Assembly (NCBI GenBank): GCA_944989445.1
Contig: CALYLW010000124.1
Coordinates: forward strand, 126,501-190,500
Source of the DNA: Ampullaceana balthica
Lineage: Eukaryota; Mollusca; Gastropoda; Lymnaeidae
Length of the DNA stretch: 64,000 nucleotides
Reading direction: 5' to 3'
The stretch's first letter is position 1. Each line of letters begins with the position of its first letter. This document shows positions 21,502 through 57,932 of the stretch, in pieces. Both the position numbers and the translations under genes were made by a program. The notes under the pieces were generated by a model. It had not been told where the DNA came from, made no database searches, and was given only the letters and a program-made list of their open reading frames with translations.

Positions 21502-24500
21502 CCATAAAAATGGTAGTCTCACACACACACGGGCTAAAGTACATTTATTTATTTTAAAACGATTATTGTCACAGGTTTTCAGATTCCCCAAAGGCGCCAC
21601 TAAACCTGACCTTGAACTTGGTGAAAAGTTTGTTCCAGGCAGCGATGAGAAGCATTTCTGCAAACCTACAGATGTCGCTGTAGCCAGCAACGGAGATTTC
21701 TTTGTCTCTGATGGGTAAACAATTGACTTAACGTAAACTTGTACTTCAACATTATTGTGTTTTAAAATCTGTTTCATGTCAGTTATTTTAAAACAAAGGC
21801 ATCATCATCTCATCAAGTTCATTTTTACTCCACTTGTTCTCAGATATTGTAACAACCGAATCCTCAAGTTTTCAAGTGAAGGAAAGATCATTGCCCTGTG
21901 GGGAGACAAAGAGGGAAGCTGTGAGTTAAAACTTTACAAAATATTTATGGAAATATTTACATTGATTAGAAATGCGACCTTTACACAGATGAATTAAAAA
22001 AACGGGGGGGGGGTAAATCCAGGCGATCACCGGAAACAATCGGTAATAAAATGTGCTTTACCGGTTGACCATGATATTTTTAAAGAAATTTCAACTAGAT
22101 CAAGATGATGAAATACTGAATACCAGAGTGTAGCCACGCTTTAATTAAATACCAGAGTGTAGCCATGACGCTTTAACTATCCAGAGCATCAGTTTAAATG
22201 TGATCCTATGATTTGTTCCGGTACGCAAACAAATTTTTAAATATATTTTTTAATTCGTATAACAAATCTCCAATTATCTTTCGATCCAAATGTCTCATGA
22301 CTCTTCTGTATTCTGTCTCAGACACATTGACCCCATCCAGCCTGAATGTCCCCCACAGTATCACACTGATTGAGGAGTTGGACCTCGTGTGTGTGGCTGA
22401 CAGGGAGAACAGCAGGTGAGTGTACCTCGTCCACACGCATCTTGCTGAATGGACAATAAGGGGCCAGAGACCTAGGGGATCTGACCGATGGATATTTAAA
22501 TTAGTTGTTTTGAAGCTAATAATTCATAATTAAATTGCAGACCATCTTTGTACTCCATTGAAATATTTGAATTTTAAAAGTTATAAATGTCATAGAAAAT
22601 CAAAAGAATTTTTTCCAAAACACACTAGTAATTGCGTGTAGTTTTACATCTTTCAGCTCTCACTTTATAGTCAGCACAGGTTCACTTTATAGTCAGCACA
22701 GGTTCACTTTATAGTCAGCACAGGTTCACTTTATAGTCAGCACAGGTTCACTTTATAGTCAGCACAGGTTCACTTTATAGTCAGCACAGGTTCACTTTGT
22801 AGTCAGCACAGGTTCACTTTATAGTCAGCACAGGTTCACTTTACAATGTTTCCACGATGTTAAAAATATTTACCTTGTGTAAACAACCCCTTAAAATGCT
22901 AAATTCTCTTGCACAAAATAATAACATTAAGCAGCATCAATAAAAAAAATAATTAAGACGATTAAGTTAAGCCAAAATATTAATATCCTCAGAGCTTTGT
23001 GCTACAACGCTGGTTTAAACAACAAGACTTCTATAGGAGCCTTCAACCGCACTCTGATACCACAGGGAGATATGGGGAAAGTCTATGCTATTTACTATAA
23101 CAAAGCCGGTAATACTCCTTGTAAAAACATTTCTCTGCTATTAACTATGGGTATAATTACTATGAAAAAGCCGGTAAAATTGGTTAAAGAGTATACTGTT
23201 ATAAAATAATTAATGACAAATGTGTTGCCTTTAGGGTGTCCTCGGTTTTTTTGTTACTCTCATTTCCATCATTATGTGAGGTCGATGGTATAGTGACGTA
23301 TAACGCAGGATGGAGTGACAGGGATTAATTAATGGATCCCTTCATTTGGGGATATAAGCTGCTTCTCTGTAGAGTTAACCCTAGTTCGCTGTCTCAGATA
23401 TAACTAGGTGTACGTGAGTGACATACACACTAAGTATGATATACCAGCCAATTAGAGAAAACTATGAGATGCATATGGAAGCTAGAGACATACACAGAAG
23501 TATGATATATACATTAGGGGCCGTCCATAAACGACGTCACACGATTTTTGCCAATTTTTGACCCCCTCCCTCCCCCTCGTCACGCGTCGTCACAAAAACT
23601 TAGACCCCCCCTCTAAAATACGTCACAAATCTTTGACCTCCCCCCCCAAAAAAAAACAAACAAAAAAAAACAAACTTATTTCCTAATTGAAAATAAGAAT
23701 GTTTCAAATCACTTTTATTGTCATTTAAGTATTTATTATTTATTTAGTGAAGGACTACATTGTAATATAGTAACCCGCGTGAAGCATTTTTTAAATACGT
23801 TTAACCGGCCTTCAGAAAAAGAAATGTGTTAACATCCTTAGATTATATTTTATTTTAATGCATACAAATTTAACATTGATTATTAATCATCACGGTTAAC
23901 GTCTTTGTTTAGAAAAAAAAGTTATTTAAAAATAAAATATAAAAAAATGTATTTTTTTTAAATCCCTCAATTGACTGACGGGCATCCAGTAAGTCAGACG
24001 ATGGCGATCAGAGGTAAATAACCTCATCTGGGGTCAAAAAGTGAATTCTTGGAGGTAATGCAGACTCATTTGGCACATATAACATCCACTACAATCCTCT
24101 AGATATATTAAAATACGTCATGTGTACGTGTACGCTTGGAACATATGCTCATTATTGAACCGGTTCCTTCCAGAAAATGCATTTTTAAAAAATTTGATAA
24201 CTATGTAGATTTCTTACCTATGTACTATACGAAGACACCTAAATCTACCCTACTTTCATTTATATTGACACGAGTGACAATAATCTTAATCCACATGACC
24301 TGTCTGTATCACGTATCATTTCTGTGATGCCTTAAAAACTGAGCTAAGAAGAAAAAATGTTTTGTGCTCCTCTCGAATTGCGATGTCAAGAATTTGATGC
24401 ATTCAATAAAGTTAATGAATACTTGACTAATTTTAAATGGGCTCATTTACCATTATATCTAGAACAGTGCTATTCAAACTTTTTAGTATGGCGGACCGGC

Positions 24501-36000: not shown

Positions 36001-39000
36001 ATTTTAGTAACGACAATATTCAAAGTCAAAGTCACGAGCAAAAACAGGTTGGTGTTTAGTGGTAGACAACATACGAAATAGGCAGAGATCACGGGTGGTA
36101 AGCCACACTCAGATGAGAGATTAACCTTGCGACAGTTAAAGCTCAATATATGTACGTGTTCGCTGTTATGTTACGTCCAGTCAGGCTCACTCATACCATG
36201 TTTACATGTTATGTTACGTCCAGTCAGGCTCACTCATACCATGTTTACATGTTATGTTACGTCCAGTCAGGCTCACTCATACCATGTTTACATGTTATGT
36301 TACGTCCAGTCAGGCTCACTCATACCATGTTTACATGTTATGTTACGTCCTGTCAGGCTCACTCATACCATGTTTACATGTTATGTTACGTCCTGTCAGG
36401 CTCACTCATACCATGTTTACATGTTATGTTACGTCCTGTCAGGCTCACTCATACCATGTTTACATGTTATGTTACGTCCTGTCAGGCTCACTCATACCAT
36501 GTTTACATGTTATGTTACGTCCTGTCAGGCTCACTCATACCATGTTTACATGTTATGTTACGTCCTGTCAGGCTCACTCATACCATGTTTACATGTTATG
36601 TTACGTCCTGTCAGGCTCACTCATACCATGTTTACATGTTATGTTACGTCCTGTCAGGCTCACTCATACCATGTTTACATGTTATGTTACGTCCTGTCAG
36701 GCTCACTCATACCATGTTTACATATTATCCATCTACTAATCTATAAGCCTGATGACAGTCTCATCTACATTTTGTTCACATATATGTACCTGTCAGACTG
36801 AGTGGTGCGTCTTTAGCTTTTTTACTCACTTCAATGACATGATTCTTTCAGCTCTTACGTTTCCCCAAGAACGCCACTCAGCCTGACCTTGAACTCGGAG
36901 AGAAGTTCGTCCCTGGCAGTGACACCAGACATTTCTGCAAACCAGCTGACGTGGCTGTCGCAAGTACTGGAGAGTTTTTTGTCGCCGACGGGTGAGGAAA
37001 GAGGCAACACCAGTTAAATATCCCATCGCATGATGTAACATATAATTATTTTTGAGCTCGTCTTTAACAGCTTGGATACATGTAAACACCAATATGAGGG
37101 TTTTAAGATGTGGAACGAATTTACATGACAAATTTGAACATATTCATATTAAAAGTCATTGCTCTCTGATCATATTTTATTTATTACAGCTGCACCTCCA
37201 ACCGAGAATAAAATTGCGTTTTTCACGTATCCAAGGTTTATTTCTAGTCTTTCAATTTTATTAGAGTTTTAAATGTTGATAGTATGTTGGCTTTCCTGGT
37301 TTCATCAGGCAACCATTCCTCCCCCGAATTTTAGACGAGAAGAACGATAATATGTGTTTGTTCTTGTATACGGAATAAGAATTTTTTATCCCAATGTCTA
37401 TCTGAGGGTTGCATTACATTATCATTGTGTTGTATTTCCAAGCTAGAATTAATGCCTTTTGTATCATTACTACTTTGCTCTTTGTTCTTCTATTCACTAG
37501 TGTTTCAAGGTTTAATAATTTACCTGATGGTGTTGCTGTTTCCATTTTATAAATTTCTCTCTTGTAACTCTAAAGCATGTTTAAACTACATCAATGATAA
37601 GTCGTATGGATGGTAGATAAATATGTTAATACAAAATTTAACCACAAAATTTAAATTCGTGCACCCATGAACATTTTTCATTTTGGTTAAAATATAAATT
37701 TCCCTTTAGTATATGAATTTTTCTCCCACTATATCTTCAGCTATTGCAACAGTCGCATTATCAAATTTTCCAGTGATGCTCAAGTTCTTGCCCAATGGGG
37801 TACCTCAACAGGAAGATGTAAGTTTAAAACATCAAATTATTCAAATACCACCGAGCCCTTAACATCGTTACTCTCAAAAAATAATTATCTGAACTGTAAG
37901 ATTTATCATATCTGCTACAGATCCGCCTTCTATACATAATATTATTGCGTCCTACGCTTATCCATGGTTTATGTCTAGCTTTGAATTTTAATCGATTTTT
38001 TAATGTTGATAGTATGTTGGTTTTTCTGGTTTCCTCAGGCAAACCATACCACGTCTGAATTCCAGACGGGAAGAACCAGAATTTGTATGTGTTTGATCTT
38101 GCATACGGAATAAGAAGTGTTTTATCTGTATGTCTTTCTGAGGGTTGTATTTGATTACATTTGTGTTGTATTTTCAAAGTATATTTAATTGCCTTTTGAA
38201 CTTGCAGGGTTTAATGGCGTATATTTGTTTTGTTTTTATCCAGCTGTTTATTTGTATATCACTCAAACCATCTTCCAAATGTCCATTATTGTCCATGCCT
38301 ACATTTGTGAATATTAAAATTAATCTTTTATGTTATTTTAAAAAGGAAGCAATAACTACGGAACAAAAGATTTAAAATTTTGTTCTAAATGTTTATATTA
38401 GCACTGAATGTCTCTATTAACAACTAACTGAATGACTCATTAAGCAACAAACTAAATGTCTATGAGCTGTAAATGATTTTAAAACGGTTTTAATTGTCAC
38501 CACTTGCAGATGGTCTGACGCCCTTCACATTAAACATCGTCCATAGCATTACACTCATAGAGGATCTGGACCTGGTCTGTGTTGCTGACAGAGAAAACGG
38601 CAGGTTTGTTTGGTGTGTAGGTTTGTTTGGTGTGGAGGTTTGTTTGGTGTGGAGGTTTGTTTGGTGTGGAGGCTCGCTTAGGGTGTAAGTTTGTTTGGTG
38701 TGTAGGTTTGCTTGGTGTGTAGGTTTGTTTAGTGTGGAGGTTTGTTTGGTGTGGAGGCTCGCTTAGGGTGTAAGTTTGTTTGGTGTGTAGGTTTGCTTGG
38801 TGTGTAGGTTTGTTTGGTGTGTAGGTTTGTTTGGTGTGGAGGTTTGCTTGGTGTGTAGGTTTGTTTGGTGTGGAGGTTTGTTTGGTGTGGAGGTTTGCTT
38901 GGTGTGTAGGTTTGTTTGGTGTGGAGGTTTGTTTGGTGTGGAGGCTCGCTTAGGGTGTAAGTTTGTTTGGTGTGTAGGTTTGCTTGGTGTGTAGGTTTGT

Positions 39001-39979
39001 TTAGTGTGTAGGTTCGTTTGGTTTGTTGGTTGGTTTAATTTCATTGTTTAAATAGTTTGTAACTGGTAAACAAGGTGCCAATATAACACAACTCTAGTAG
39101 CGCTCTATATACGTGGCTGAGATTATTGGCATGTACTTTCAGAGCGCTGTGCTACAACGCGGGCTTAAAGAATTCGACGTCTATAGGAATCTTCAACAGA
39201 ACTATTGTACGGCAGGGCGAGATAGGGAAAGTGTATGTTGTACATTACAACAAGGCTGGTACGATACTTAATCAAAATCAAAAACATAATGACAGCGACA
39301 TAAATTTTAGAATCCTAAATGATAAAGTAAATACAGTGTCTATAAAAACCAAGGGAGGAAATATTTTAGTCTTGACATGATATTTGAAACATAAAATATT
39401 GAATTATGAACCATTAAATAAATTATAGGAATTTCGTGCAAATGACCATAACAACAATCATTCCAGACATGATGTTGTGTTCACAGAGAAAACTGTGTTG
39501 GCTGCTGGTCTTATATCACGCGTCCCTTACTTGAACTCACGACATGTGACTTACCCACCTCGAGCTTTTACCTACAACACTGATGGGCTTAAGTTAGAAT
39601 CATGGGCCTACATTACGCAGGTATGATCTATTATACATAGTTATTAACATGTGCAACCATTCTCACATGTCACCAGTCAAATATCAGCAATAAAATTTAA
39701 AAATTGAAGTGTCACCTATCGCATCTCGCCAATGAAATTTCACTAATCAAAACTTGTTTATAAACTCTCAATAATAAGCCCCCAGAATCATATATTAGTT
39801 CTCATTATTACTCCCCATCTTAACAACACAAACTATGTTTGTATTACAAATCTCTGATTCAGGACACCTCCAAGCTCGGCCCATCATTAATCCATGATTT
39901 GTGCTCGTCCAGTGACGGAAGTGACGTATTCCTGGCCGACCAAGATCAACACAGAATACTCAAGTACACGAGGAGTTGA
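33055..39979 (+). CDS. PAL: Peptidyl-alpha-hydroxyglycine alpha-amidating lyase, PAL-B
   Basis: Ten exons: 33055-33165, 34997-35127, 35448-35567, 35807-35879, 36852-36991, 37741-37817, 38510-38603, 39143-39258, 39487-39620, 39863-39979 (TGA). GT-AG throughout; 370 codons. Exon sizes and phases copy PAL-A (exons 3-8 identical in length). A hydrophobic 20-residue signal peptide is followed directly by the lyase domain. Zinc-ligand contexts read NVPHGL, NIVHSI (Pro replaced by Val before the His) and SLIHDL; the FHR arginine, GYC tyrosine and both cysteine pairs are present. The C-terminus stops at YTRS, about nine residues shorter than PAL-A. AATAAA follows at 40038-40043. Probably an active secreted PAL, from tandem duplication. 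Confidence 0.95.
33247..33705 (-). mobile_element. Helitron-like 3' end and body in PAL-B intron 1
   Basis: CTAG at 33247-33250 followed on the minus strand by T and preceded by GGCGCC-rich hairpin sequence and CAGCACAACCTAG. The body matches 57938-59700 (AAAGCCCAAGTAACTTAT, GTGTGGAGGGTGTTTAATG). Its 5' end was not fixed. Confidence 0.6.
34116..34614 (+). mobile_element. Family B hairpin/inverted-repeat element
   Basis: GTAAAAAACAAGTTTTTGAC hairpin, TATAAATCCTTTATG near the start, TTAATATAAAGGATTTA at the end. It shares the GATCGATCTGAAA block with family A. A sister pair lies at 58109-59084. Confidence 0.6.
36165..36724. repeat. 43-bp minisatellite, 13 copies, PAL-B intron 4
   Basis: Unit GTTATGTTACGTCCAGTCAG plus 23 bases; the first four copies have CCAGTC, the rest CCTGTC, a clean subfamily switch. 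43 is not a multiple of 3, so the open frames of 177-224 codons cycle through all three readings and are artefacts. Confidence 0.95.
38604..39035. repeat. 17-bp minisatellite starting at the PAL-B exon 7 splice donor
   Basis: About 25 copies of GTTTGTTTGGTGTGGAG and variants, beginning at the GT of intron 7 (exon ends GGCAG at 38603). Each unit recreates an AG/GTTTGT junction. Confidence 0.92.
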
Positions 39980-40375: not shown

Positions 40376-43300
40376 ATGGCTTCCACAATTCAATCTTTGA
40401 TTTCACTGCACCTCTTCGTGTCTATTTGTAAAATGTTTGCAAGCTCTCAGGTTAGTTTTATGCAATAAACATCATAAAAACTTGTAATTTCACTTGCGTG
40501 ATAATGGTTCTAACGTGTTAGCACATTTTTCAAATCATGTTAAATACCAGCTAGAGATTCATCTTTTATAAAGTATAAAGACATAATGTTGAACAATAAT
40601 TAATTGTAAGATATATAAATAAGATATATCAACCATCCTGTAAGTCAAGTTAAATATCATTTATTTACTGGTTGAGGTTAGGATATACAATTTACCAGAG
40701 TAGTTTTATTTTGTTCTATATTTAACCACCAATGAGTGACAGCGCGTGCAATTATTTCTGTGTAAAAAATAAACATTACTTTGTACATATCAAATAAAAT
40801 ATATACCTTATATTTGTTACGGAAGAGCCCAAAATATGGGAAGTAATCCTGGTTGTTGAAATTACAATTCAGCTGAAATTCTCTGACCATCTCGAGTTTA
40901 TATACTTTTTTTATATGTCGCCCTCAGATTGTTCCCGTTGAAGATCCTGTCTTTAGCACAGACGGCCAGGAGATAGGGATGATTTCAGCAGTGGACGTTA
41001 ACTCTAAAGGCGACCTGTACGTCTTCCACAGAGCTGACAAGCCGTGGACCGATGAGTGAGAAGAAAATTCTCTAACGTGAACTCACAACTCACAGCTCAC
41101 AGCTCACAACTCACAAATCTTCGAAATACCCTAGTGAAACCATTGTGTGTTTTGACGTAGATATTTTCGATTCTTTAAATTCCTTTTTGGAATAACGTAT
41201 TCTAAATACATATTTTTCAGCCAGTCTTTCACTGCTACAGATGTATCATGAAGTTAGAACATACAAGCTAAATTTTAAAGGCATACTGCTCAAAACCACA
41301 TCGAAAAATAATTTCTAAAAACTAAGAGAATGCTACTGAGAAATTGCTCTGACATCTAATAAGTAATGTTATATGACGTGTGGGTAATTTTCCTCTCTCA
41401 ACGCCACCAGCACATTCCTGCCCAACAGTAATGTACTTTCGGCTGTCGGACAGGTGCCTATCTCTAAAGACCCAATTTTCATTGTTGACCCAACAACTGG
41501 AAGAAAAAAGTCTAGCTTCGGAAAAAACATGTGAGTAGCAAATACACCAGAAATGGTTTTAAGGTTTCGTTTTGTTCATTTAATTGTTAACTCAAACACA
41601 ACTTTGTTCATTTCCAAAGGTACTACGAAGAATAAAAACTGAGAATGGTCTCAGTGCTTTTAAAGTTTAGGAGACCATGACCAAGGACGACAATAACCAT
41701 AACTCCCTCATTTAGATAACATGTCCCTCTACGCTGAAGAGGAATTAATCGATCATTAATGATTTTCATGAATTGTTAGGAGGATTTCAATTTTAGCAAA
41801 ACGTTTTCCAAAAAATATATCCGTATATTTCAAAGTCATGTTTCTTGACGATAAAACATTAATAATAATAATAAATTGGTAATTTTTATAGCGCTGTTTT
41901 CCAGGAACGAGCCGGGCTCACAAAGCATTACATGGAGATAATAGCATACATATAATAATTTAAATATACATTATTTTTCATAATAACCTCATAAATAACA
42001 GTACAATAAACATAAGCAACGTTAATCATTAAAAAGAAATGGTGTTTCTTTAATTTTGAAAATAAATTTTGAAAAGATGCGTCTTAAGTGCAGTCTTGAA
42101 GGACTTGGTAGATGAAATACTTCGGATGTGTAATGGTAGAGAATTCCATTGTTTGGGTGCACAAAAAGACAATGACCTTTCACCAAATGTTCTAGTTCGT
42201 GTCCTAGGAACACAGAGAATGCGCGTGTCTGCAGAAGAGCGTAGCTGACGACTTGGTGAGTAGACCAACATAAGCTCAGTAAGATAGGAAGGGCATGAGT
42301 CAGAAAAGAAGTTGTGACAGAGAATGGCCAGTTTGTAATCAATTCGGGCTTGTATTGGTAGCCAATGAAGTGAGTAAAGTAGCGGAGTAACCTGTTTTTT
42401 TTTGTTTGCCTTTAGAACTAATCTGGCAGCTGAATTTTGAATTTTCTGTAGTTTTTCAAGGCATTGTTTTGGCGCACTTGACAGAAGAGAATTGCAGTAA
42501 TCCATACGAGCTAGTACAAGAGCACAGACTAGAGTTTTTGTTGCACTAACTGTTAAGTAATGACGGATTGAGATGATCTGACGAATGGCAATGTAGGCAG
42601 AGCGACAGATGGGATTGATGAAGCTGTTGGTAGACATATTGTCAGAAATAAGGAGTCAAGATTCCTAGTCGATGTTTTGAACAGTATATCAGAACTAGCC
42701 ACCTGAATAGAATTCGGAAAGACAAAGTACTGCGTGATATATTGTTGCAGAATAGGAGTGCTTCTGTCTTGTCATCATTCAGTTTGAGCTTTTTGTTGCA
42801 TAAACATAACAACAATCATATTCTCAGTGGAGAAGCATTAATAAATTTGCACTGATGAATTTGAAATTTTGAAGCTTTCATTAGCCCCTCACTCGGATGG
42901 TATTTTTATTTTTTAAAATATGTTATTCCGTTTAAATCACTGTGTTTTAACCGCCATCCCTTACAAATTTCCTTTATAATGAAAAAAGTTAGACGTTTGG
43001 ACATCTTTAGGCTCTTTAATGTTCTTGTTCGCTCACTTACAGCATTGGTTTCATTTATATTATATTGTAAACCAAGTATTTGCCACAATAAATTTTCATC
43101 ATTTCCATTTGACACCATATTTCTGTATTTATAAATAAAGTATCGTGTTGTGGGATACCCTCTAGGGTGAGGCATCAAAATCTGATTTTGATCCAGCCAT
43201 TAAAAACACACTAAAGTCGTCGCCTGAATCAGACAAAACACTACCTTTACGTTGTTAAACGATGTCTGACGTCTTCGGTTTGCTTATATTTCATGCACAG

Positions 43301-46300
43301 CTTCAACATTCCGCATGGACTAAAAATAGATGCTAACGACACAGTGTGGACGACAGATGTTGGAAGACACCAGGTAGATAAAATAGGTGTGTTGGTCACT
43401 TCACTTTTGTTGGTGAATTGTGTAAAACAATCTTTTTTACTTAATGAGTATCAGCAGTTTATGAGAGGGAACATAAAATGAATGACGTCATCTACTGTTA
43501 TCGCAAAAAAGTAGTTCGATTATTGATTTGTATATCTGCAATGTTGGCGCTAGTAAAGTTAAAAGTAGTTACTTTAGTCCCAGTGGCCCAAATCAATAAT
43601 GTTAATTATTGTAGTGATATTAATAGAGCTGTTATTATTAAAAGTAATGTTGGTCACAGTATTGCAAATAGTAGTGATACAAACAGTAATGGTATCAGCA
43701 CCATTATTAATATTTTCAGAAGAATTTTTACAGCCTGTTATTTTATCGGCAGTGATGTTAGCCCAAGTAATGCTAACAGAAGTAATGTTAGTCACAGTAA
43801 TGCTAACAGAAGTAATGTTAGCCCCAGTAATGTTAACAGAAGTAATGTTAGCCACAGTAATGCTAACAGAAGTAATTTTAGCCACAGTAATGCTAACAGA
43901 AGTAATGTTAGCCCCAGTAATGCTAGCCCCAGTTATATTAAAAGTAGAGGTGATGGGTCTAGTTTTGTCCTGTACCATCAAGATCCCACCAAAGCTCCTG
44001 AACCTCCCAGGTTTTGAGATTCCCGAAAGGCGCCACCCAGCCTGACCTAGTTCTTGGGGAGAAGTTTGTCCCTGGTGACGACGATCAACACTTCTGCAAA
44101 CCTGCTGACGTCACTTTCGGCAGAAATGGTGACTTTTTCGTGGCAGATGGGTAGGATTCAAGTTTTATATACAAAACAAAAAAAATAATTTTTAAAAAAT
44201 AAATAATAATAATAATTGTCATAGTAATTTATTCGGTAGTCAATTTTAAACCCCTAATTTCGCATTCCTTTTTTAAAAAGTTCAAACGCTAAGTTTTTGG
44301 AAATAAATATGAATATATTTTTTTCCCCCCCACCCAGCTACTGTAACAGTCGAATTTTGAAGTTTTCTCGAGATGGACAGCTGCTCTTCAAATGGGGAGT
44401 CAAGTTGGCGAGTGGTATGGCAAAACACGAATGATAATAAGCATATATATATTATTAGTATTGTTATTATTTTAAATTGTATTGTTAAAGACTTGACTGA
44501 ATAAATACAATAACAATAAACCAAAAATTAATCTTATCACCACGGATGGGGTAGATAATTGATCAGCCAACATTATTTAAACGATAACTTTACTTTCTCG
44601 GTCTACCATCTACAGTTACTCACATTCAGATGACATGATTCTTTAATGAATCAAACACAGTAAAACGTTATACATCCTAAACTTTAATAATTTTTTTGTA
44701 GCTACGAATGCATTGGACAATTTCACACTAGACACCCCTCACAGTTTAACATACATAGAGAAAGAGGACCTCATATGTGTGGCAGATAGAGAACATAGCA
44801 GGTAAAGTGTACGGTATGTGTGGCAGATAAAGAACATAGGTAAAGTGTAAAGAACCTCGCGAATAAAGAAAATAACAGATTTTGTGTTCAGAGCCCGCTG
44901 ATAAAGAGAGACAATATAATTTTAAGTATACTGAACATAGCAGATTAACAACATAACAGAGAAAGTGTACAGAACAAGACGAATAGAGAACATAGTAAGT
45001 AAATTGTACGGAACATGCAGATAAAGAACATAGCAGGTAAAGTGAACGAATTTCGGATTAAAGAGAAAAAGCTCATTAAAGATAATATTAATAATAATAA
45101 TAATTGACAATTTATATAGCGCTGTATCCCAGTAAGGAACCGGGCTTACAGCGCTTTACATGGAGATCATAAGATACATATAATAATTAGATAACCATTC
45201 ATACCATAATAACAAAATAAAGGACAGTACATTACACATAAGCTACGCTAATCATTACAAACAAATGTTTAATTAATTTTGTAAATACATTTTGAAAAGT
45301 TGCGTCTTAAGTGCAGTCTTGAAGGACTTGGTAGTTGGAATAATACGGATGTGTAATGGTAGAGAATTCCATTGTTTGGCTGCACAAAAAGAGAATGACC
45401 TTTCACCAAAAGTTTTAGTTCGTGTCATAGGAACACAGTGAATATATGTGTCTGCAGAAGAGCGTAGCTGACGACTGGGTCAGTAGACCGACAGAAGTTC
45501 AGTAAGATAAGTAGGAGATGAGTCAGAAAAGAAGTTGTGACAGAGAACAGCCAGTTTGTAATCAATTCGAGCTTGTATAGGTAGCCAATGAAGTGAGTAA
45601 AGTAGCGGAGTAACATGGTCATGTTTTTTTGCCTTAAGAACTAGTCTGGCAGCTGAATTTTGAACTTTCTGTAGTTTTTCAATGCATTGTTTTGGCGCAC
45701 CTGACAGAAGAGAATTGCAATAATCAATGCGAGCTAGAACAAGAGCACAGACTAGAGTTTTTGTTGCACTAACTGTTAAGTAATGACGGAATGAGCTGAT
45801 CTGACGAATGGCGGTGTAGGCAGAGCGACAGATGTGATTGATGAAGCTGTTGGTAGACATGTTGTCAGAAATAATGTAGCCGAGATTCCTAGTCGATGTT
45901 TTGAACAGTATATCAGAACTAGCCACCTGAAAAGAATTAGGAAGAGACAAAGTACTGCGTGATTTATTGTTGCAAAATAGGAGTGCTTCTGTCTTATCGT
46001 CATTCAGCTAAAGCTTGCTGAAAGTCATCCAAGACTTTACCTCACCAATGCACTCCTGCATCAATTGGACAGTGGAGTCACTATCAGAGGGATCAGTGTG
46101 AGTGTATAGCTGAGTATCATCTGCAAATGATTGGCTTTTAACTGAATGCTTTTCAAGCAGTAGAAGTAGTGGCCTTGTATACATTACGAAAAGAACCGGA
46201 CCCAAAACGGAGCCTTGAGGCACACCATAAACCAAGTCAGCTCTGTGAGAGATACGAAGAAGTGACCTGCTTGTAACACCAAAGAAAACCTGCACATTGA

Positions 46301-49300
46301 TACAGATGAGGTTTCAGAAATATTCTAAAGTGAACAACAGCACATTTAGTTTTAAGGGGCCGTCCATAATTAACGTCAAGCGATTTTTGCCGGTTTTTCT
46401 TACTCTGCCCACTCGGCACACATCTTCACAAAACTTAGACCCCCCCTCTCTTCCAATATGACGTCACAAAAATTTGCTCGCCCCCCCTCCCCATAAAAGC
46501 TGTATTTTCTATATGAAAATGAGCATGTTTCAAATCTCTTTCTTGTCATTTAAGTATGTATTTAGTGTAAGGCTGCACTCTAATATCGTAACACGCGTGA
46601 AGCCATGTAAAAGGTCATTAAATACGTTAAAAACAATCAAATATTTAAGAGGAACTTTTATTTAAAATTGTGCATTTTGATGTTACGTCACATTTCTTAA
46701 ACACTCCCTCCCCCTCGTCACACATCGTCACAAATGTGTAAACCACCCCACCCCACCCCTTTTTTAGTTGCCTGACGTCATTTATGGAAGGCCCCTAATA
46801 CCAAAAATTCAGCTGCTATTACGGCGTAAAAATTGTAAATCTTACTGATTCACGTCTTGCTTTGTAATGTATTATGCGGTCATTTATTCTGTAAGTCCAA
46901 GAAATAGATAGCCAAGTTCGTAGAAAATCTTATAATCGTATAAAGTAGGTTTGTGCTGTATGGTATAGTACACATGACAATCTAAAGTAACTGCATACAG
47001 ATTTAAATTGAACACACCAGGCTGTCATTTCAGAGCTCTCTGCTACAACGCCGGATACACAAATGGACTGTCTCTGAGCAGCTACAATAGAACGTTGGTT
47101 GGTGTCAATGAGACGGGAAAGGTGTTTGCTATATACTACAACAAGGCAGGTCAGTGGAGCAATGTTATTATATACTACAACAAGGTAGGTCAGTGGAGTA
47201 ATGTTATTATATACTACAACAAGGTAGGTCAGTGGAGTAATGTTATTATATACTACAACATGGCAGGTCAGTGGAGTAATGTTATTATATACTACAACAA
47301 GGTAGGTCAGTGGAGTAATGTTATTATATACTACAACATGGCAGGTCAGTGGAGTAATGTTATTATATACTACAACATGGCAGGTCAGTGGAGTAATGTT
47401 ATTATATACTACAACATGGCAGGTCAGTGGAGTAATGTTATTATATACTACAACATGGCAGGTCAGTGGAGTAATGTTATTATATACTACAACAAGGTAG
47501 GTCAGTGGAGTAATGTTATTATATACTACAACATGGCAGGTCAGTGGAGTAATGTTATTATATACTACAACATGGCAGGTCAGTGGAGTAATGTTATTAT
47601 ATACTAGAACAAGGTAGGTCAGTGGAGTAATGTTATTATATACTACAACAAGGTAGGTCAGTGGAGTAATGTTATTATATACTACAACATGGCAGGTCAG
47701 TGGACTAATGTTATTATATACTACGACATGGCAGGTCAGTGGAGTAATGTTATTAATTATATACTACAACAAGGTAGGTCAGTGGAGTAATGTTATTATA
47801 TACTACAACATGGCAGGTCAGTGGAGTAATGTTATTATATACTACAACAAGGTAGGTCAGTGGAGTAATGTTATTAATTATATACTACAACAAGGTAGGT
47901 CAGTGGAGTAATGTTATTATATACTACAACATGGCAGTTCAGTGGAGTAATGTTATTATATACTACAACATGGCAGGTCAGTGGAGTAATGTTATTAATT
48001 ATATACTACAACAAGGTAGGTCAGTGGAGTAATGTTATTATATACTACAACATGGCAGGTCAGTGGAGTAATGTTATTAATTATATACTACAACAAGGTA
48101 GGTCAGTGGAGTAATGTTATTATATACTACAACATGGCAGGTCAGTGGAGTAATGTTATTAATTATATACTACAACAAGGTAGGTCATTGGAGTAATGTT
48201 ATTATATACTACAACATGGCAGGTCAGTGGAGTAATGTTATTATATACTACAACATGGCAGGTCAGTGGAGTAATGTTATTATATACTACAACATGGCAG
48301 GTCAGTGGAGTAATGTTATTATATACTACAACAAGGTAGGTCAGTGGAGTAATGTTATTATATACTACAACATGGCAGGTCAGTGGAGTAATGTTATTAT
48401 ATACTACAACATGGCAGGTCAGTGGAGTAATGTTATTATATACTAGAACAAGGTAGGTCAGTGGAGTAATGTTATTATATACTACAACAAGGTAGGTCAG
48501 TGGAGTAATGTTATTATATACTACAACATGGCAGGTCAGTGGACTAATGTTATTATATACTACGACATGGCAGGTCAGTGGAGTAATGTTATTAATTATA
48601 TACTACAACAAGGTAGGTCAGTGGAGTAATGTTATTATATACTACAACATGGCAGGTCAGTGGAGTAATGTTATTATATACTACAACAAGGTAGGTCAGT
48701 GGAGTAATGTTATTAATTATATACTACAACAAGGTAGGTCAGTGGAGTAATGTTATTATATACTACAACATGGCAGTTCAGTGGAGTAATGTTATTATAT
48801 ACTACAACATGGCAGGTCAGTGGAGTAATGTTATTAATTATATACTACAACAAGGTAGGTCAGTGGAGTAATGTTATTATATACTACAACATGGCAGGTC
48901 AGTGGAGTAATGTTATTAATTATATACTACAACAAGGTAGGTCATTGGAGTAATGTTATTATATACTACAACATGGCAGGTCAGTGGAGTAATGTTATTA
49001 ATTATATACTACAACAAGGTAGGTCATTGGAGTAATGTTATTATATACTACAACATGGCAGGTCAGTGGAGTAATGTTATTATATACTACAACAAGGCAG
49101 GTCAGTGGAGTAATGTTATTATATACTACAACAAGGCAGGTCAGTGGAGTAATGTTATTATATACTACAACAAGGCAGGTCAGTGGAGTAATGTTATTAT
49201 ATACTACAACATGGCAGGTCAGTGGAGTAATGTTATTATATACTACAACAAGGTATGCCAGTGGAGTAATGTTATTATATACTACAACAAGGTAGGTCAG

Positions 49301-50870
49301 TGGAGTAATGTTATTCTATACTACAACAAGGCAGGTCAGTGGAGTAATGTTATTATATACTAAAACAAGGCAGGTCAGTGGAGTAATGTTATTATATACT
49401 ACAACATGGCAGGTCAGTGGAGTATTGTTATTATATACTACAACATGGCAGGTCAGTGGAGTAATGTTATTATATACTACAACAAGTAGGTCAGTGGAGT
49501 TATGTTATTATATACTACAACATGGCAGGTCAGTGGAGTAATGTTATTATATACTACAACATGGCAGGTCAGTGGAGTAATGTTATTATATACTACAACA
49601 AGGCAGGTCAGTGGAGTAATGTTATTATATACTACAACATGGCAGGTCAGGGGAGTAATGTTATTATATACTACAACATGGCAGGTCAGTGGAGTAATGT
49701 TATTATATACTACAACAAGGCAGGTCAGTGGAGTAATGTTATTATATACTACAACATGGCAGGTCAGTGGAGTAATGTTATTATATACTACAACATGGCA
49801 GGTCAGTGGAGTAATGTTATTATATACTACAACAAGGCAGGTCAGTGGAGTAATGTTATTATATACTACAACATGGCAGGTCAGTGGAGTAATGTTATTA
49901 TATACTACAACATGGCAGGTCAGTGGAGTAATGTTATTATATACTACAACATGGCAGGTCAGTGGAGTAATGTTATTATATACTACAACAAGGCAGGTCA
50001 GTGGAGTAATGTTATTATATACTACAACATGGCAGGTCAGTGGAGTAATGTTATTATATACTACAACATGGCAGGTCAGTGGAGTTATGTTATTATATAC
50101 TACAACAAGGTAGGTCAGTGGAGTAATGTTATTATATACTACAACATGGCAGGTCAGTGGAGTAATGTTATTATATACTACAACAAGGTAGGTCAGTGGA
50201 GTAATGTTATTATATACTACAACAAGGTAGGTCAGTGGAGTATTGTAATTATATACTACAACAAGGTAGGTCAGTGGAATAATATTATTATATACTACAA
50301 CAAGGCAGGTCAGTGGAGTAATATTATTATATACTACAACAAGGCAGGTCAGTGGAGTAATGTTATTATATACTACAACAAGGTAGGTCAGTGGAGTATT
50401 GTTATTATATACTACAACAAGGTAGGTCAGTGGAGTAATGTTATTATATACTACAACAAGGTTGGTCAGTGGAGTAATGTTATTAATTATATACTACAAC
50501 AAGGCAGGTCAGTGGAGTATTAATTAATGTCCTGTTACTGACTGCTGTGTGACTCGCTTGCAAACCAGAAGAGACACTCTATCCTATGAAAAAAATTAGC
50601 CACAGTATAAACTTGATGAAATATTAGCAAGCAGAGACCCTGTATGAAAGCTCTGAATCATTGGTGTTAAGACTCAAAGCTCTGTTAAAACTTTCTCAAA
50701 ACCCGAAAAACCCTTATAACTTGTTGATTGTTCCAGCCAACGAAGTCGTCACAGCTGGAGAAATTTCCCGCGAGCCTTTCTCCGTAAATGGTCAATTAGT
50801 TTATCCAGCACGGGCCTTCAGCTACAGCCTGAGTGGTCAGAAATTAATTTCCTGGGCTTTCATTACACAG
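40376..50870 (+). CDS. PAL: Peptidyl-alpha-hydroxyglycine alpha-amidating lyase, PAL-C (last exon not in window)
   Basis: Nine exons: 40376-40450, 40928-41055, 41411-41530, 43301-43373, 44011-44150, 44338-44414, 44702-44801, 47034-47149, 50737-50870. All junctions are GT-AG, phases identical to PAL-A and PAL-B; 321 codons are visible. The signal peptide is residues 1 to about 24. NIPHGL and DTPHSL keep two zinc His residues; the FHR Arg, GYC Tyr and both Cys pairs are present. The tenth exon, with the third zinc His (SLIHD in the paralogues), was not found between 50871 and 64000. Either it lies beyond the edge after an intron of more than 13 kb swollen by transposons, or the gene lost its 3' end. 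PAL-B's polyadenylation signal is only 333 bp upstream of this ATG. Confidence 0.9.
41865..42850 (-). mobile_element. 5'-truncated CR1/L2-like LINE in PAL-C intron 3
   Basis: A 195-codon minus-strand frame (42637-42050) matches the C-terminal part of LINE reverse transcriptases (DYCNSLL, QNSAARLV, LHWLPI, WNSLPL motifs). The element ends 3' in an ATT microsatellite (41865-41880), as CR1/L2 elements do. No endonuclease or catalytic palm; inactive. Confidence 0.88.
43745..43935. repeat. 18/36-bp minisatellite, PAL-C intron 4
   Basis: Alternating AGTAATGTTAGCCACAGTAATGC-type units, read in 18-bp steps. Open frames on both strands (135-179 codons) are repeat artefacts and end within exon 5. Confidence 0.85.
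45085..46330 (-). mobile_element. Second CR1/L2-like LINE copy, PAL-C intron 7
   Basis: Same family, orientation and 3' end as the copy at 41865 (ATAGCGCTGT motif, ATT tail). It extends further 5' and keeps GVPQGSVLGPVLF and the FADD catalytic motif of reverse transcriptase. A frameshift near 46010 separates the two RT frames. It ends about 25 bp from the MITE at 46356. Confidence 0.9.
46356..46795. mobile_element. Intact PIF/Harbinger-like MITE, PAL-C intron 7
   Basis: 440 bp; ends GGGGCCGTCCATAATTAACG and TGACGTCATTTATGGAAGGC, flanked by TAA on both sides (46353-46355, 46796-46798). This is the best copy for defining the family length. Confidence 0.9.
47130..50522. repeat. 39-bp minisatellite built from the PAL-C exon 8 splice donor, about 86 copies
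   Basis: Unit ATATACTACAACAAGGCAG/GTCAGTGGAGTAATGTTATT, where the slash marks the real exon 8/intron 8 junction in the first copy (47149/47150). Variants: AAGGTAG, ATGGCAG, and a +4 form with AATT. The in-frame reading continues exon 8 as repeats of a 13-residue unit QWSNVIIYYNKAG until a TAG at 47605. A segment of several hundred bp is duplicated at a spacing of 839 bp (for example TACTAG at 47602 and 48441), showing later block duplication. Confidence 0.97.
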
Positions 50871-51484: not shown

Positions 51485-51811
51485 TGTAACAGTGGCTGGT
51501 TTTACTTATTTATATGTAACTCTCTTGTAGGCGTTCTCTCAATACATAATCTTGTATACAATAATCCACTGAAGAACTTGTTTCAATAAAACAACTTTAA
51601 TATGTATACTATGTACAAGAATTATTATTTGAGGTTATACAACGTGGAATTCTCAAGCACACACATCACGTCCTTCCCTCACGGAAGTTATCTGACAACT
51701 GATCTCCCAACCTTCTCAGCCAATGGGAAGGCTCCTCTCTTCCCGCGCTTAACACTCACATGACCTCTCCATCATGCAATCACGCAATATACATGTGATG
51801 TATACGTGACA
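51485..51811 (-). repeat. 3' LTR
   Basis: 327 bp; on the plus strand begins TGTAAC and ends GTGACA. About 98% identical to the LTR at 57606 by eye. Confidence 0.95.
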
Positions 51812-51829
51812 TTCACCCCCATCCTTCAA
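51812..51829 (-). other. Polypurine tract
   Basis: Minus strand AAGGATGGGGGTGAAT abuts the LTR, the normal plus-strand primer position. Confidence 0.75.
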
Positions 51830-52284
51830 AAAAAATGTTTATGAAATACAGCATTTTTGGTCTTCATAAAATCAAATCAATCTATATCTATATTCAAATT
51901 TCAAATATTTATCATCAATGAACATTCATTGCCTTGCACACAACATCTAGACATAAAATCAATAAGAAAAAATCTGTAGGACTGTAACAGTCTACCTGTG
52001 TTGAAAAAATGAAAATAGAATTTTAAACACATCTGTAAATTTGTGTAATTAAAATATTTTTAACAATCAATATTATTAAAATTAACTAATACTCCAGTGG
52101 AATTTAAACACTGTTCCTTGTCCATTGTTCAACGAATAAAAATATTAATATTATTACAGTCTCTGGTTGTATCCTTTAGAAATTCACAGACTAATGTTAA
52201 TTATTAATACAGTCTCTGGTTTTATTATTTAGTAATTCACAGAATGTCTTTTTAATACCGTCTCTGGTTTTATCATTGAGGAAT

Positions 52285-53118
52285 TCACAGAATGTCTTTA
52301 TTTATTGTCATTCTACTCAATATGTCTGCAACCACATTGTCCTTTCCCTTCACAGGTTTAATGTCAAATTTGTAGTCGGCTAATAGCATAGCCCATCGAT
52401 TCACTTTTGCATTGCTGATCTTCTTCTTTTTGAATGCCACAAGTGGTTTGTGTTCTGTTAGAAGAGTGAGTGTTCTACCTAGAAGGTATTTTTGAAGTTT
52501 TTGTAGAGCCCACACTATGGCTAGACATTCTCTCTCTATGGTGCTGTAGTTACACTCTGTTTTGGTCAAATTTCTGCTAAGATACTGTATAGGATGAAGG
52601 ATACCATCATGTTCTTGCATGAGGCACGCTCCTAATGCAATGGACGATGCATCAGTAGAAACAATGAAAGGTTTGTCCCATTGAGGTGTAACTAAGATGG
52701 GTTTCTTCCTAAATGCTTCCTGAATATTCTCTAATGCGTTGAGGCAATCTCCTGGAAACTGAAATTTTCGAATATCTTTGGTTTTTGTAACTTCTGTTAG
52801 TGGGTGAACAATTTCTGCATAATTTGCAATAAAATGTCTGTAAAAGTTACATAGTCCCAGCAGGGCTTGCACTTGTTTCTTAGATTTTGGGACTGACAGA
52901 TTAAATATCTTGTTTTCATTCTCTGCAGTAGGAGTGACTGCACCACCTCCTATTCTGTATCCCAAAAAATCTATATACTTCTTTCCAATGTTGATCTTTT
53001 CTGGTGAGATTGTCACATTATGTTTCTTGAGTCTAATCCAGTACAGCTTCAAGTGTATGGATATGTGATTCCCAATCTTTAGTGTGGATACATATGTCGT
53101 CGACATAATGTACCACAT
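52285..53118 (-). pseudogene. RT C-terminal part and RNase H of the retroelement
   Basis: 278-codon frame. The FLGYRI...LLGLCNFYRHFI thumb/connection is followed by RNase H with STDASS, ERECLA and a final NVVADILSR. The usual TDHKPL reads TEHKPL, a change at an acidic site residue. The YVDD palm motif of RT lies at about 53097-53108 in another frame, so a frameshift near 53040 separates it from this ORF. Confidence 0.9.
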
Positions 53119-53128
53119 TTGGAATTCC

Positions 53129-53725
53129 TCATAACATCACTTTCATAAATCTGCTAAAAGTGGCTGTACTGTTGACCAGTCCAAATGGCATTACTAACCA
53201 TTCAAACACCTCATCCATGGCTATGAATGCAGTGTATTTGACAGAATCAGGATCCATATGTATCTGCCAAAAACCTCTGTTTAAGTCAAATGTAATGAAT
53301 ATTTTGGAATTATCAATTCTGTCTATAATATCTGTTGGGTCTCCAATAGGTTCATCGTCCAATTTTGTAATATTATTCAACTGTCTGTAATCACAGCATA
53401 GTCGAATCTTTCCATTCTTCTTTTTTACTATGACAGTTGGTGAGGTATAGTTAGCTTCAACTGCTTTTCTTATTTTGTTTTCCTTAAGTAGGTAATCAAT
53501 TTCTTGCTTTACTGTGTCTCTATATGCCATCGGAATGGGGTATACTTTAGTCTTGAAAGGTTCATGCTCCAATACTTGTATCTTGTGAGTCACAGTTTTT
53601 GTGTTTCCTGTTTCTTTTGTTATGACACATTTGTATTTTTGAAAAATGTTCCTCACTCTGTGTTTCATATTATCTGGTATGTCAGATGATATTTTTTCAC
53701 TGTCAGGAATGTTCTTTTTCATCAT
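53129..53725 (-). pseudogene. Reverse transcriptase N-terminal part
   Basis: Gypsy-type RT: IRLCCDYRQLN, FITFDLNRGFWQI (first catalytic Asp), WLVMPFGLVNS. It ends at an in-frame TGA a few codons before the YVDD motif. Confidence 0.92.
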
Positions 53726-53807
53726 ATTGTCATTTTCATCATTTACTCTGCTGATGATATTAACAGTTTGCTTTTCTTCTTTATTGTCATCATATGCTCT
53801 TAGTTTG

Positions 53808-54844
53808 TCAATATGTAATTTTATTTACCTGTCCTTTGATATTGACACTATATGTGACATCACTAAGTTTCTCTTCAATCTTGTATGGACCTTCCCATGT
53901 TATTTCATTCTTTGCGTTTGGTAACCATACTAAGACTTGTTGTTCAGGCTCAAATGTTCTCAAATGTCTGTGTTTATTTTTGATTTCTCTATGTCTTGTA
54001 CTTTGTTTGATTATTCTTTGTTTTGCTGCTTCCATACTGTAAAGTATTTTATCTCTAGTATCTGACATCAGCTGATATCTGTCCTGTATGGCGTCTTGTT
54101 TGCTTATAAGCCTTTCTTTGAAATTCTTCAAGGGACTTGCAGGGTTTTGGCCAAACATTAACTCAAAAGGACTAAAACCAGTGCTTTCATGCTTGTTGCT
54201 GTTGTATGCAAAAAGTACTTAAGGTAAATAATCATGCCATCTGTCTTCATGGTCTACTGTCACCTTTAATAGCATATTATTGATGGTTTTGTTTAGTCTT
54301 TCAATCACTCCATATGATTGTGGATGGTAAATTGTGCTGTGCACTTGTGTAATGTTTAACATTTTCATAATGGCTTGTGTCATCTGTCCCTTGAATTGGC
54401 TGCCATTGTCCAACAGAAGTGTTTGAGGAAAACCATATCTGCTAAAAACATTGAGTAATGCATTGCATATATTTTCTGCATCTATTCGCTTCAGTGGGAT
54501 AGCTTCACCCCATCTGGTGGCTATGGCCACTATGGTTAGAGCATACATATGTTTCTTCTTTGACATCTTTTTGAATGGTCCTATCAGGTCTATGGCAATT
54601 TTCTCAATAAGAAGTTTGCCTTGTCAGATGATTGTATGGGTGCTGTGTGCCTCCCATCTTTGGGATTATGTCGTAGACACACTGTACACCCCTTGATGTA
54701 TTCTTTTATCTGCCTTGCCATGTTAGGCCAGTAAAAGTTTTCTGCTATTGTAGCAATTGTTTTCTTGGCGCCCATATGTCCACCTAAAGGACTGTCATGT
54801 GTCATTTTAACAATGGTTTCCTGTAACTTTTTGGGAAGAACCAC
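53808..54844 (-). pseudogene. Integrase of the retroelement, broken
   Basis: Three frames in order: 54844-54590 with the HHCC zinc domain (H...H...CTVC), 54566-54219 with the DDE core (LLLDNGSQF and GVIERLNKT), and 54158-53808 with a GPY/F-like C-terminal module (WEGPYKIEEKL). The first catalytic Asp lies in AIDLIGP just upstream of 54566. A frameshift at about 54597 and a TAA at about 54218 break it. Confidence 0.92.
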
Positions 54845-54946
54845 TCTTTTGCACGTACCTTCCTGTGCAATGTTTATTAATATGCCTTTTATCTAGCTTG
54901 TAATTTTTGTTGTGGCCTGTTTCATTGTCTTTGATAAGTTTCATTT

Positions 54947-55693
54947 TTATTTCCCTGATTGTGTTATCTTCTCCTTGTAGTGTTTGAACTCTTGTTTGGA
55001 CATCAGTTGGCTTCCTATTTCAAGTTTCTGATCAACTTCAATGTCTATGTTCTCTTTTCTTTTAGTGGTGGCTCTTGTTTGTACAGTAGCTAATAATTGA
55101 TGGCTGTTGTCATGCCAAGCCTTGAATACTTCATCAGTATTGTCCACTACTCCTTCAATGTTCCCTATGATAAGATCACAAATGGCCTCATTTAAAACTC
55201 TGGCTCTAACTTCACCTTGAAGCCAGGGTGAGTTGATGGTAAAAATTGCAGTTGGGCACTCTCTCTTTGTGCCATCAGCCATTATCAGTGTGTCTTTTTG
55301 CCCATCATACTCTTCTTCTTTCACCATCTTACTATGGACCACAATTGTTGTGCATCCAGTGTCACGAAGACACATACACTTTCTATTATTGATGTACACT
55401 GGGTAAAATTTCAGTGTTCCATGATCCTTTATAGTGGCCACAGTATTACTAGATTGTGATTCTTCTTGTTTCATTTTTCCTTTATTATCTCCATCTTGGT
55501 AGTTATTCCTTCTCCAGGGCTGATCATGATTTCTGTATCTGGAGTCATGATTATATCTGCCTCTCCATGATCTTCTACCTTTGCTTTCAAAATGACCTTG
55601 TCTTGATCTTTCTTCTGTTTTCTTTCTTATGAGGCTGCCATTAGGTGATACCCTATTTGGTTGTCCTTTATTGTGGTAACACTGCTTCGCCAT
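54947..55693 (-). pseudogene. Zinc-knuckle remainder and aspartic protease
   Basis: Begins within the CCHC knuckle, then a basic linker, then a retropepsin-like domain with active site RDTGCTTIVV and a downstream DLIIGN. It lies 5' of integrase. Confidence 0.88.
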
Positions 55694-55714
55694 ATGTCCT
55701 GGCTTGTTACAGTA

Positions 55715-56755
55715 CTAGCAAATAGTTTGTCTATTGCCTTGGTTTGGCAGACTCTGGTTTTTCATAACTTGTCTTTTTTCTTGACTTTTAATTTGTATTG
55801 CTGCAAATATATCTTGTCTCTTATCCATTTCCACATTCGGATGAGAGTCTTTGAATGTTCGTAATGCATTTGTTAGCTCTGCTTGAGTACGAACTTTCTT
55901 GTCAGTTAAATATGTGAATAGAGTTGGTGTTGCATTCTCTAAAAAACTGTCAATTAACACCATGTCTAGTATGGCCTTTGGATTACTTGTATCTACTGCT
56001 ATAAGTTCCAGACATTTTGTTAATTTAACTTGTGCTTCATGCACTATGATCTGTGGATCTTTATTCATCTTGATTCTCATGAAATTCTTTTCTATAATCA
56101 TTTTCTGACTTTCCAAAATGACATAGAAGTGCCTTCTTGACATTTTTATAAATGCTTTTGTCTTCTTTGGCTATACTGTTGTAAGCTTCAAATGCTTCTC
56201 CAGTTAACTGAGTCATCAATTGTGCTGGCCAATCTTCTTCATCATAACCTTTCATGGCCATTATGGATTCGAAATAATCCAGATAAACATCCATTTTTTT
56301 TCTTTCTGACTATCATATTTTCTAACTTTGATATTGTCCTTTGATGCTGGCTTTCTATTTGTGTCATTACCAGGATTGTGGCCTCTGCTCTCTAGCTCAA
56401 TCTGTAGTTTTAAGTTGTCATTTTTAATTTGTTCAAGTTCTCTTTTTGCAGCTCTTTCTTCTCTTTCAATTATTAGTCTTTGCCTCTCTTTTTCTTCGGC
56501 CTCTTTTTTATTTTCTTTTTCTTCAGCTTTTCTTAGCTTTTCTTCTTCTTTAGCAATTCTTTGATTTTCTTTTTCTTCAGCTATTCTTAGCTTTTCTTTT
56601 TCTTCAGCTATTCTTTGATTTTCTTCAACAATTCTTACTTTTTCTTCAATGAAATCTCTCATTTCTTTTCCCTTTAGTCCGATCTCTTTAGCTATGGCAG
56701 TGAATTCTTTGTAGTAATCCAGGTTTTGTTTGATTGAATAATATGAGTCCAGCAA
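55715..56755 (-). pseudogene. Gag of the retroelement, broken
   Basis: Three overlapping frames: 56755-56261 (coiled coil of E/K/R-rich repeats after AKEIGLKGKE), 56294-56061 (capsid-like start VYLDYFESI) and 56143-55715 (capsid end and first Cys of the zinc knuckle). One frameshift falls at an A8 run at about 56294-56301, another at about 56090. The knuckle is interrupted by TAG at about 55715. Confidence 0.85.
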
Positions 56756-57589
56756 TTCGATAAGGAATGTAGGTATATATTGATAAAGTTATACATCTTC
56801 CAAATGAAAAATCTTGAATTCAAAATGTTAAGTTAAAATAAGTGACACGTCTAAACCATGCAATTTATTATTGGCAAGGTGAGACAACAAAGAATCCTCA
56901 CACGGGATCTTTAGTATGCTTTATATATACGCTCCCTCAGATTGACAAAATATATCTAACGGTCCAATCGTTTTGAATAAAAGTCACTTGATTAAATTTT
57001 CAATTTTCGAGTAGTTTTTAAACAATTTAGTTCAGTCCATTAATCCAAAATTGCAATTATCAAACTTTTCACACAATGAATGGATAAAAATTCCGTTTCT
57101 TTTTTTTATAATTCACACTGACACTGTTGTTAATAGTCCATAGCTTTCAAGTTCACTGTTATGTTTAAAAATATTTCCTGGAATCAACTAGCAGTGAGCT
57201 TGTTGACGTCACGACCTATATATGTTCACCGTGTGTCACCATACAGTAAGCCTGCACGACCCATATTCCAGCACTGTTTATTTTTAGAACCAACTTGCTT
57301 GTTGACGTAACGACCTACCCAACTAGGTGGCCTAGTTTTATATACCGCACGCTGTGGACACGAGCAGTTATGCCGCCATCTTGAAATATTCTTGTATTTT
57401 CATTGAACCACAAACATTTATTCACAGCTTCTTACGAACTTGAATATTCACAAAATACGAGAGCTGCTAATATTTCTTCTTTTAATGAATACTTTCCTTT
57501 TTGAAATATCCAATACTTGTCACTTCCACGAAACCTCTTTCATGTACTGTGTTCACTTAGTACTAATGCCTGATGATAATGGTAATCAC
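56756..57589 (-). other. Retroelement 5' leader
   Basis: About 830 bp between PBS and gag, no coding frame seen. Confidence 0.6.
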
Positions 57590-57605
57590 TTTTACTTCGA
57601 CACCA
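57586..57605 (-). other. Primer-binding site, probably tRNA-Leu
   Basis: Minus strand TGGTGTCGAAGT follows the LTR end directly. It differs from the complement of a typical tRNA-Leu 3' end (TGGTGTCAGAAGT) by one missing base. Confidence 0.6.
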
Positions 57606-57932
57606 TGTAACTGTGACTGGTTTTACTTATTTATATGTAATTCTCTTGTAGGCGTTCTCTCAATACATAATCTTGTATACAATAATCCACTGAAGAACTT
57701 GTTTCAATAAAACAACTTTAATATGTATACTATGTACAAGAATTATTATTTGAGGTTATACAAGGTGGAATTCTCAAGCACACACATCACGTCCTTCCCT
57801 CACGGAAATTATCTGACAACTGATCTCCCAACCTTCTCAGCCAATGGGAAGGCTCCTCTCTTCCCACGCTTAACACTCACATGACCTCTCCATCATGCAA
57901 TCACGCAATATACATGTGATGCATACGTGACA
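57606..57932 (-). repeat. 5' LTR
   Basis: 327 bp, TG...CA on the plus strand. Seven mismatches to the partner LTR by eye. Confidence 0.95.

Follow-up and report, generated by a model that had tools for sequence, protein, structure and literature searches.

Splice-donor minisatellites in Ampullaceana balthica: an 86-unit array in the peptidylamidoglycolate lyase gene PAL-C and its counterparts at other donor junctions

In a 64-kb stretch of the genome of the snail Ampullaceana balthica (contig CALYLW010000124.1, called C124 below, positions 126501-190500; hereafter the window), one of three tandem peptidylamidoglycolate lyase (PAL) genes, PAL-C, carries a 39-bp minisatellite of 86 units at the end of its exon 8, and each unit is a copy of the last 20 coding nucleotides of the exon plus the start of the intron. 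The array grew from an ancestral exon end, keeps the reading frame open through its first units, lies in a gene that is intact as far as it can be read, and is accompanied by other donor-junction arrays, both in the PAL genes and in unrelated genes. We consider it probable that this is a minisatellite of the kind described as a "mirage" in amphioxus, born by tandem duplication across the donor site and tolerated as the first donor still works. The array is real, belongs to a known kind and is unusual in its copy number. Taken alone it is a large but ordinary example; the interest lies in the recurrence of such arrays across one molluscan genome.

In the mechanism that we propose, a segment of 39 bp, lying across the 5′ splice site of exon 8, would have been duplicated in tandem, and ordinary minisatellite turnover, block duplication included, would have amplified it. 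The first donor would end exon 8 in most transcripts and the remainder of the array would be removed as intron, with minor use of donors 2-12 perhaps adding 13-residue units in a β-turn of the propeller. Such arrays could be tolerated and expand because duplication leaves a complete first donor and the rest is removable as intron. Nothing that we found requires the extra donors to act, and to judge from the sequence the persistence of the array is probably not due to any need for them.

Structure, origin and known relatives of the PAL-C array

Tandem Repeats Finder (TRF) delimits the array at 47130-50519 (period 39, 85.8 copies, 93% matches), and parsing yields 86 units of 24 sequence types, whose 85 spacings are of 39 bp in 73 cases, 43 bp in 11 and 38 bp in one. 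A preliminary description of this stretch, made from its letters alone, had reported an exon/intron junction amplified about 86 times, starting inside exon 8 and copying some 20 coding bases together with the donor. Both points are borne out, as exon 8 ends at 47149 (AAGGCAG/GTCAGT, phase 1), so that 20 coding nucleotides lie within the array. The units therefore span the exon-intron boundary, and AG/GT signals occur in many of them, not in all (types j and l are without the main site); the tally is 52 CAG/GTCAGT, 28 AAG/GTAGGT and 26 TAG/GTCAGT, plus a few variants. The block growth at a spacing of 839 bp that had also been suggested is visible in this assembly as an exact self-match of 756 bp (Table 1), in which 18 consecutive unit types recur. 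At the edges of the array the first unit (k) and several of the last ones (t, u, v, w, x) are unique types.

The end of exon 8 reads YNKA in PAL-A, PAL-B and PAL-C and YYNKA in the Lymnaea stagnalis orthologue P0012; this exon end is thus the ancestral sequence from which the array arose, in agreement with the earlier proposal that exonic sequence had been recruited. An intronic repeat spreading into the exon was rejected, since the exon end is common to paralogues and orthologues. Once the excess due to the array is subtracted, intron 8 of PAL-C measures 233 bp and its counterpart in PAL-B 228 bp, and in the annotated P0012 the junction is free of repeats. The statement that PAL-A and PAL-B are free of an array holds for the exon 8 junction but not more widely, since a different donor of PAL-B does carry one. 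At the PAL-B exon 8 donor we found no second copy of the junction (best match 13/24 nt), and in PAL-A a single degenerate second copy of this stretch, exon end and donor together, lies 65 bp inside the intron (18/24 nt, 0/3000 shuffles).

Amphioxus mirages are the closest known kind. According to two reports, they are minisatellite-like tandem duplications that span exon boundaries in Adh3, the globins BflGb6 and BflGb9, troponin C and PGBD5; they carry AG/GT signals and are length-unstable, and regular splicing is reported to be undisturbed (PMC3087553, PMC3902484). The snail arrays resemble them in their boundary-spanning units, in the presence of AG/GT in many units and in their occurrence in several genes of one genome, and the edges of the PAL-C array are unhomogenised like those of the amphioxus clusters (PMC3087553). 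They differ in copy number, 86 units in PAL-C against 6 and 3 in the BflGb6 haplotypes described there, and in their host, a mollusc in which only donor-side cases were found, whereas amphioxus has both boundaries. Minisatellites of about 30 bp at exon-intron boundaries also change splicing in recent human paralogues (PMC2812944); those repeats form novel introns within exons, whereas the PAL-C array lengthens an existing intron from its 5′ end. Among molluscs, an abalone gene has an intronic 27-bp minisatellite which, as described, is not at a junction (PMC6905558), and our searches of an open-access library brought up no molluscan case of a junction array.

Table 1. Positions of the arrays, exons and related features. 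Numbers without a contig name count from the first base of the window.
Feature	Position	Strand	Basis
PAL-A, PAL-B, PAL-C: three tandem paralogues with identical exon phases		+	
PAL-C exon 7	44702..44801	+	exon model
PAL-C exon 8, phase-1 donor at 47149/47150, last 20 nt inside array	47034..47149	+	paralogue alignment; orthologues P0012, P0015
PAL-C exon 9, acceptor 214 bp past array	50737..50870	+	exon model
Junction minisatellite of 86 units (39 bp), exon 8 end plus donor in each	47130..50522	+	TRF, unit parsing
Exact 756-bp block, second copy 839 bp downstream (48189-48944)	47350..48105	+	self-match; unit string
In-frame TAG closing the frame, in unit 13	47605..47607	+	translation
PAL-A exon 8 junction, degenerate second copy (19/21 nt)	23157..23177	+	junction match
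Older degenerate array, PAL-C exon 7 end and GTAAAG donor; period 39, 6.8 copies, 63% matches	44782..45048	+	TRF
Array of 17-bp units (25.6 copies) occupying the greater part of PAL-B intron 7	38602..39036	+	TRF
B4GALT gene with junction array of about five units (L012)	C1:2032500-2035000	-	Pfam and peptide match
Nicotinic-receptor exon end and donor, 49-bp units, 9.5 copies (outside window)	C124:297875-298341	-	ligand-binding exon, 7.2e-10
Ankyrin-repeat exon, 20-bp array exactly from the donor, 15.9 copies (outside window)	C124:225617-225934	+	ankyrin, 2.2e-9

Reading frame, donor sites and rival explanations

From the native donor onward the array contains 112 AG/GT sites. Twelve of them, the native one and 11 others, keep the frame open into exon 9; a further 4 shift the frame and meet a stop past the junction, and the other 96 meet a stop before it. 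This fits the expectation that roughly the first eleven donors would add in-frame 13-residue repeats until a TAG closes the frame (Table 1). Scoring of the donors with a weight matrix gave a divided answer. The in-frame donors are similar in strength, the native type CAG/GTCAGT scoring 4.66 and ranking 7 among the 24 PAL donors, but in b-type units the frame-shifting AAG/GTAGGT (5.96) is stronger than the in-frame site (3.04). This frame-shifting site lies 4 nt upstream; among the first 14 units it is the higher-scoring one in 5, and 4 of these precede the TAG.

The emphasis first placed on the 13-codon frame is not supported. The in-frame unit looks like chance, because only 3 of 9 homology-supported junction arrays have units divisible by 3 in length, and the arrays at PAL-C exon 7 and in B4GALT meet early stops; selection for 13-codon units was rejected on the same count. 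In the PAL-C array the donor bases are roughly as variable as the remainder of the unit, with no sign of isoform selection: the 8-nt donor core makes up 8 of the 39 positions and holds 6 of the 19 distinct variants (p=0.25). We also rejected the idea that the array gives rise to recursive or new introns, as no pyrimidine tract was seen by eye before the AG of the units.

The minisatellite of human IFI6 (G1P3, 6-16) is reportedly the subject of an article by Turri et al. in 1995. A gene of this sort suggests another explanation for PAL-C, namely that the array is an isoform generator in which splicing draws on several donors among the first 12, the resulting proteins having between 0 and 11 in-frame units of 13 residues. 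We regard this as unlikely, even though isoforms may arise from such a sequence. The 12 of 112 sites that keep the frame open and the similar scores of the in-frame donors argue for it, and so does the predicted insertion point, a β-turn between strands 267-274 and 279-285 in a propeller model of P0012 (pLDDT 95), which may tolerate an insertion. IFI6 provides the precedent: it has a minisatellite at an exon end, supplying multiple donors as in PAL-C, and two downstream repeat units are stated to be used as donors (PMC4526556), so that later-donor use is shown there, unlike in PAL-C. On the other hand, the unit motif occurs in 0 of 130 proteins examined, and a search with exon 8 joined to units retrieved none at E 0.001 among 778 candidates, from a database that may lack proteins of the same species. 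The frame-shifting site outscores the in-frame one in b-type units, and 6 of the 9 junction arrays are out of frame.

Slightly less likely again is that the array acts as a brake or decoy, its 112 donor-like sites competing for U1 or yielding stop-containing transcripts and thereby lowering the output of PAL-C; the 96 sites that give a stop before the junction would suit this idea, but the amphioxus mirages, which carry splice signals, are reported not to disturb splicing (PMC3087553, PMC3902484). The block that matches exactly over 756 bp at an offset of 839 could be a false duplication, but we hold it very improbable that misassembly accounts for part of the copy number, as the 24 unit types and the edge-specific variants favor a real, evolved array and the copying of the junction is independent of the block.

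Arrays at other donor junctions

Such an array is not special to the junction of PAL-C exon 8: PAL-C exon 7, the neighboring PAL-B and six unrelated genes carry donor-junction arrays as well. In the older array at the end of PAL-C exon 7, one copy matches the junction at 23/24 nt (0/3000 shuffles), and an in-frame TAA stands immediately past the donor. The array in PAL-B intron 7 includes only the last 2 nt of exon 7 and has AG/GTTTGT-like units. Of the 24 donors in the PAL genes 3 lie within arrays, as against none of the 23 acceptors; with an array edge required among the final 30 nt of the exon, the expectation is 0.3 donors (P about 0.004, both under a Poisson model and when arrays are placed at random). 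A 22-bp array in PAL-A intron 7 (22660-22843), the unit of which contains CAGCACAGGT, lies about 245 bp past the donor and is not exon-derived as far as seen.

The genome-wide searches covered the 1.10-Gb assembly. Clusters of CAGGTCAGT were listed on contig C1 and five of them were inspected (L011-L015). The B4GALT array was among these: its exon matches β-1,4-galactosyltransferase (Pfam PF02709, 2.2e-16), the joined peptides of the flanking exons match B4GALT1 at 2.6e-12, and the last 23 exon nt and the donor are repeated about five times, with a stop soon past the donor. A 42-bp array with CAGGTCAGT in L011 (C1:1530500-1533000, minus strand) lies directly past the stop codon of a NEK7-like frame, for which reason that frame was rejected as a coding junction. 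In L015 the array starts a short way into an intron, downstream of an open frame, and its flank was rejected as a RhoGEF-like exon when the homology search returned no match; no exon was recognisable in the L013 and L014 clusters.

A second search looked for three CAGGTAAGT words spaced 21-51 bp, with the reversed word as control. Among the matches listed there are 17 donor-word arrays, 10 of which start, by eye, at a coding-looking open exon end (L040, L041, L045, L046, L048-L052 and L054). Homology is clear for three of the 17, an ABCA transporter (2.7e-21), a DEG/ENaC (ASC) channel (1e-7) and RCC1 repeats (9.9e-24), and two others, an EB module (0.0074) and FAM234 (0.055), fall under the curated cut-off. 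The homology scan gave no support for the remaining arrays of the 17, three peptides being too short for scanning. The length of the open frame upstream of the 17 arrays was rejected as proof of an exon (0/17 individually <0.05, Fisher 0.0098). On contigs C1-C4, where the matches to both words are completely covered, there are 6 donor-word and 2 control arrays, too few to conclude. The control pattern also brought up a large 27-bp satellite at C1:2878537-2897813.

The 284 kb surrounding the window were taken as an unselected sample; there, 106 arrays with a unit of at least 12 bp make up 8.8% of the sequence; 50 have a unit of 12-100 bp and at least 3 copies. A random draw meant as a control (20 of 34 arrays, 16 scannable peptides) turned up two cellular exons at array edges. 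One is the nicotinic-receptor exon, about 30 nt of whose end are copied, and the other the ankyrin-repeat exon, with GTGAGTAC in each unit of its array. Both sides were then scanned against Pfam. Of 100 edges each, 53 on the donor side and 44 on the acceptor side gave a peptide of about 30 aa or more for the scan, the peptides being cut by eye and slightly more loosely on the acceptor side. The donor side returned these same two exons plus an RNase H frame in a long terminal repeat (LTR) element, which is no splice junction, and the 44 acceptor-side edges returned 0 supported coding exons; the scan undercounts both sides, because all three PAL exons were missed at its threshold. With the PAL arrays included, at least 5 of the 50 arrays start at supported coding donors, and a fibronectin-like exon at C124:218722, recognised by eye only, is a possible sixth. 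The chance probability of 5 in 50 is 2e-5 if the 284 kb hold 60 coding donors, 0.005 for 200 and 0.06 for 400.

Arrays of this type thus seem to have formed repeatedly in the snail genome, and those observed are on the donor side. A donor-side bias, if real, would be expected, because copies past the first donor fall into the intron, whereas a scanning spliceosome would encounter duplicated acceptors first. A broader proposition, on which our judgment is evenly balanced, is that minisatellites arise systematically at 5′ splice junctions, with a sizeable part of the arrays starting at coding exon ends, introns growing from their 5′ ends and hundreds of genes carrying spare donors. If true, a process acting across the genome would lengthen introns and supply raw material for new splice isoforms; mirage-type repeats would not be confined to cephalochordates, and hundreds of natural experiments would be at hand. 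It would be interesting to use donor arrays of different ages, in a living animal, to test how the spliceosome chooses among tens of near-identical donors, and to ask whether donor duplications are tolerated more than acceptor ones and how introns lengthen.

Several observations weigh against the reading of the arrays as tolerated and recurrent products of the donor junction. In the whole assembly, CAGGTAAGT triplets occur at 1538 places and those of the reversed word at 1447, without a genome-wide excess, and an enrichment of donor words in triplets was rejected on these counts. Place counts are a poor measure, because the control places are mostly one 27-bp satellite, which accounts for all but five of them among the matches listed. 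The contrast of 5 donors to 0 acceptors in the 284 kb is weak alone (one-sided p=0.031), as is that between donors and acceptors of the PAL genes (Fisher p=0.125). Within the PAL-C array, variation per cell of the unit table is 9/672 in the donor core and 89/2604 elsewhere, which alone resembles constraint; two common polymorphisms supply 72 of those 89 cells.

The PAL genes and neighboring elements

PAL-A matches the rat PAL domain 3fvz at E 1e-58 and PAL-C aligns with PAL-A, so that homology to the catalytic propeller was found directly for PAL-A and, for PAL-C, by this alignment and the last exon. The top protein matches of the PAL genes in the window are from L. stagnalis: PAL-A shares 88.5% of 329 aa with P0011, and for PAL-C the identity to P0012 is 87.8% across 288 aa, which suggests that the two species are closely related. 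Exons are numbered here from the signal-peptide exon (exon 1, about 40376-40453), and e1-e9 of our scripts correspond to exons 2-10. The translation of PAL-C exons 2-9 is stop-free. Exon 10 was not found within the 64-kb window; it lies in the next 10 kb (L009, base 6109 onward), in phase and with a stop, and is 87% identical to P0012 over 47 aa. A pseudogene without its last exon was therefore rejected, and PAL-C looks intact on its sequence.

Two copies of a repeated element, at 41856-42792 in the PAL-B/C region and at 45084-46016 in PAL-C intron 7, are 88.6% identical over 939 bp; a reverse-transcriptase-like frame was seen by eye on the minus strand, and the tested copy had no Pfam match. 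The long intron 9 of PAL-C contains an LTR retrotransposon (51485-57932, minus strand), with 327-bp LTRs that are 97.9% identical and with reverse transcriptase, RNase H and integrase frames.

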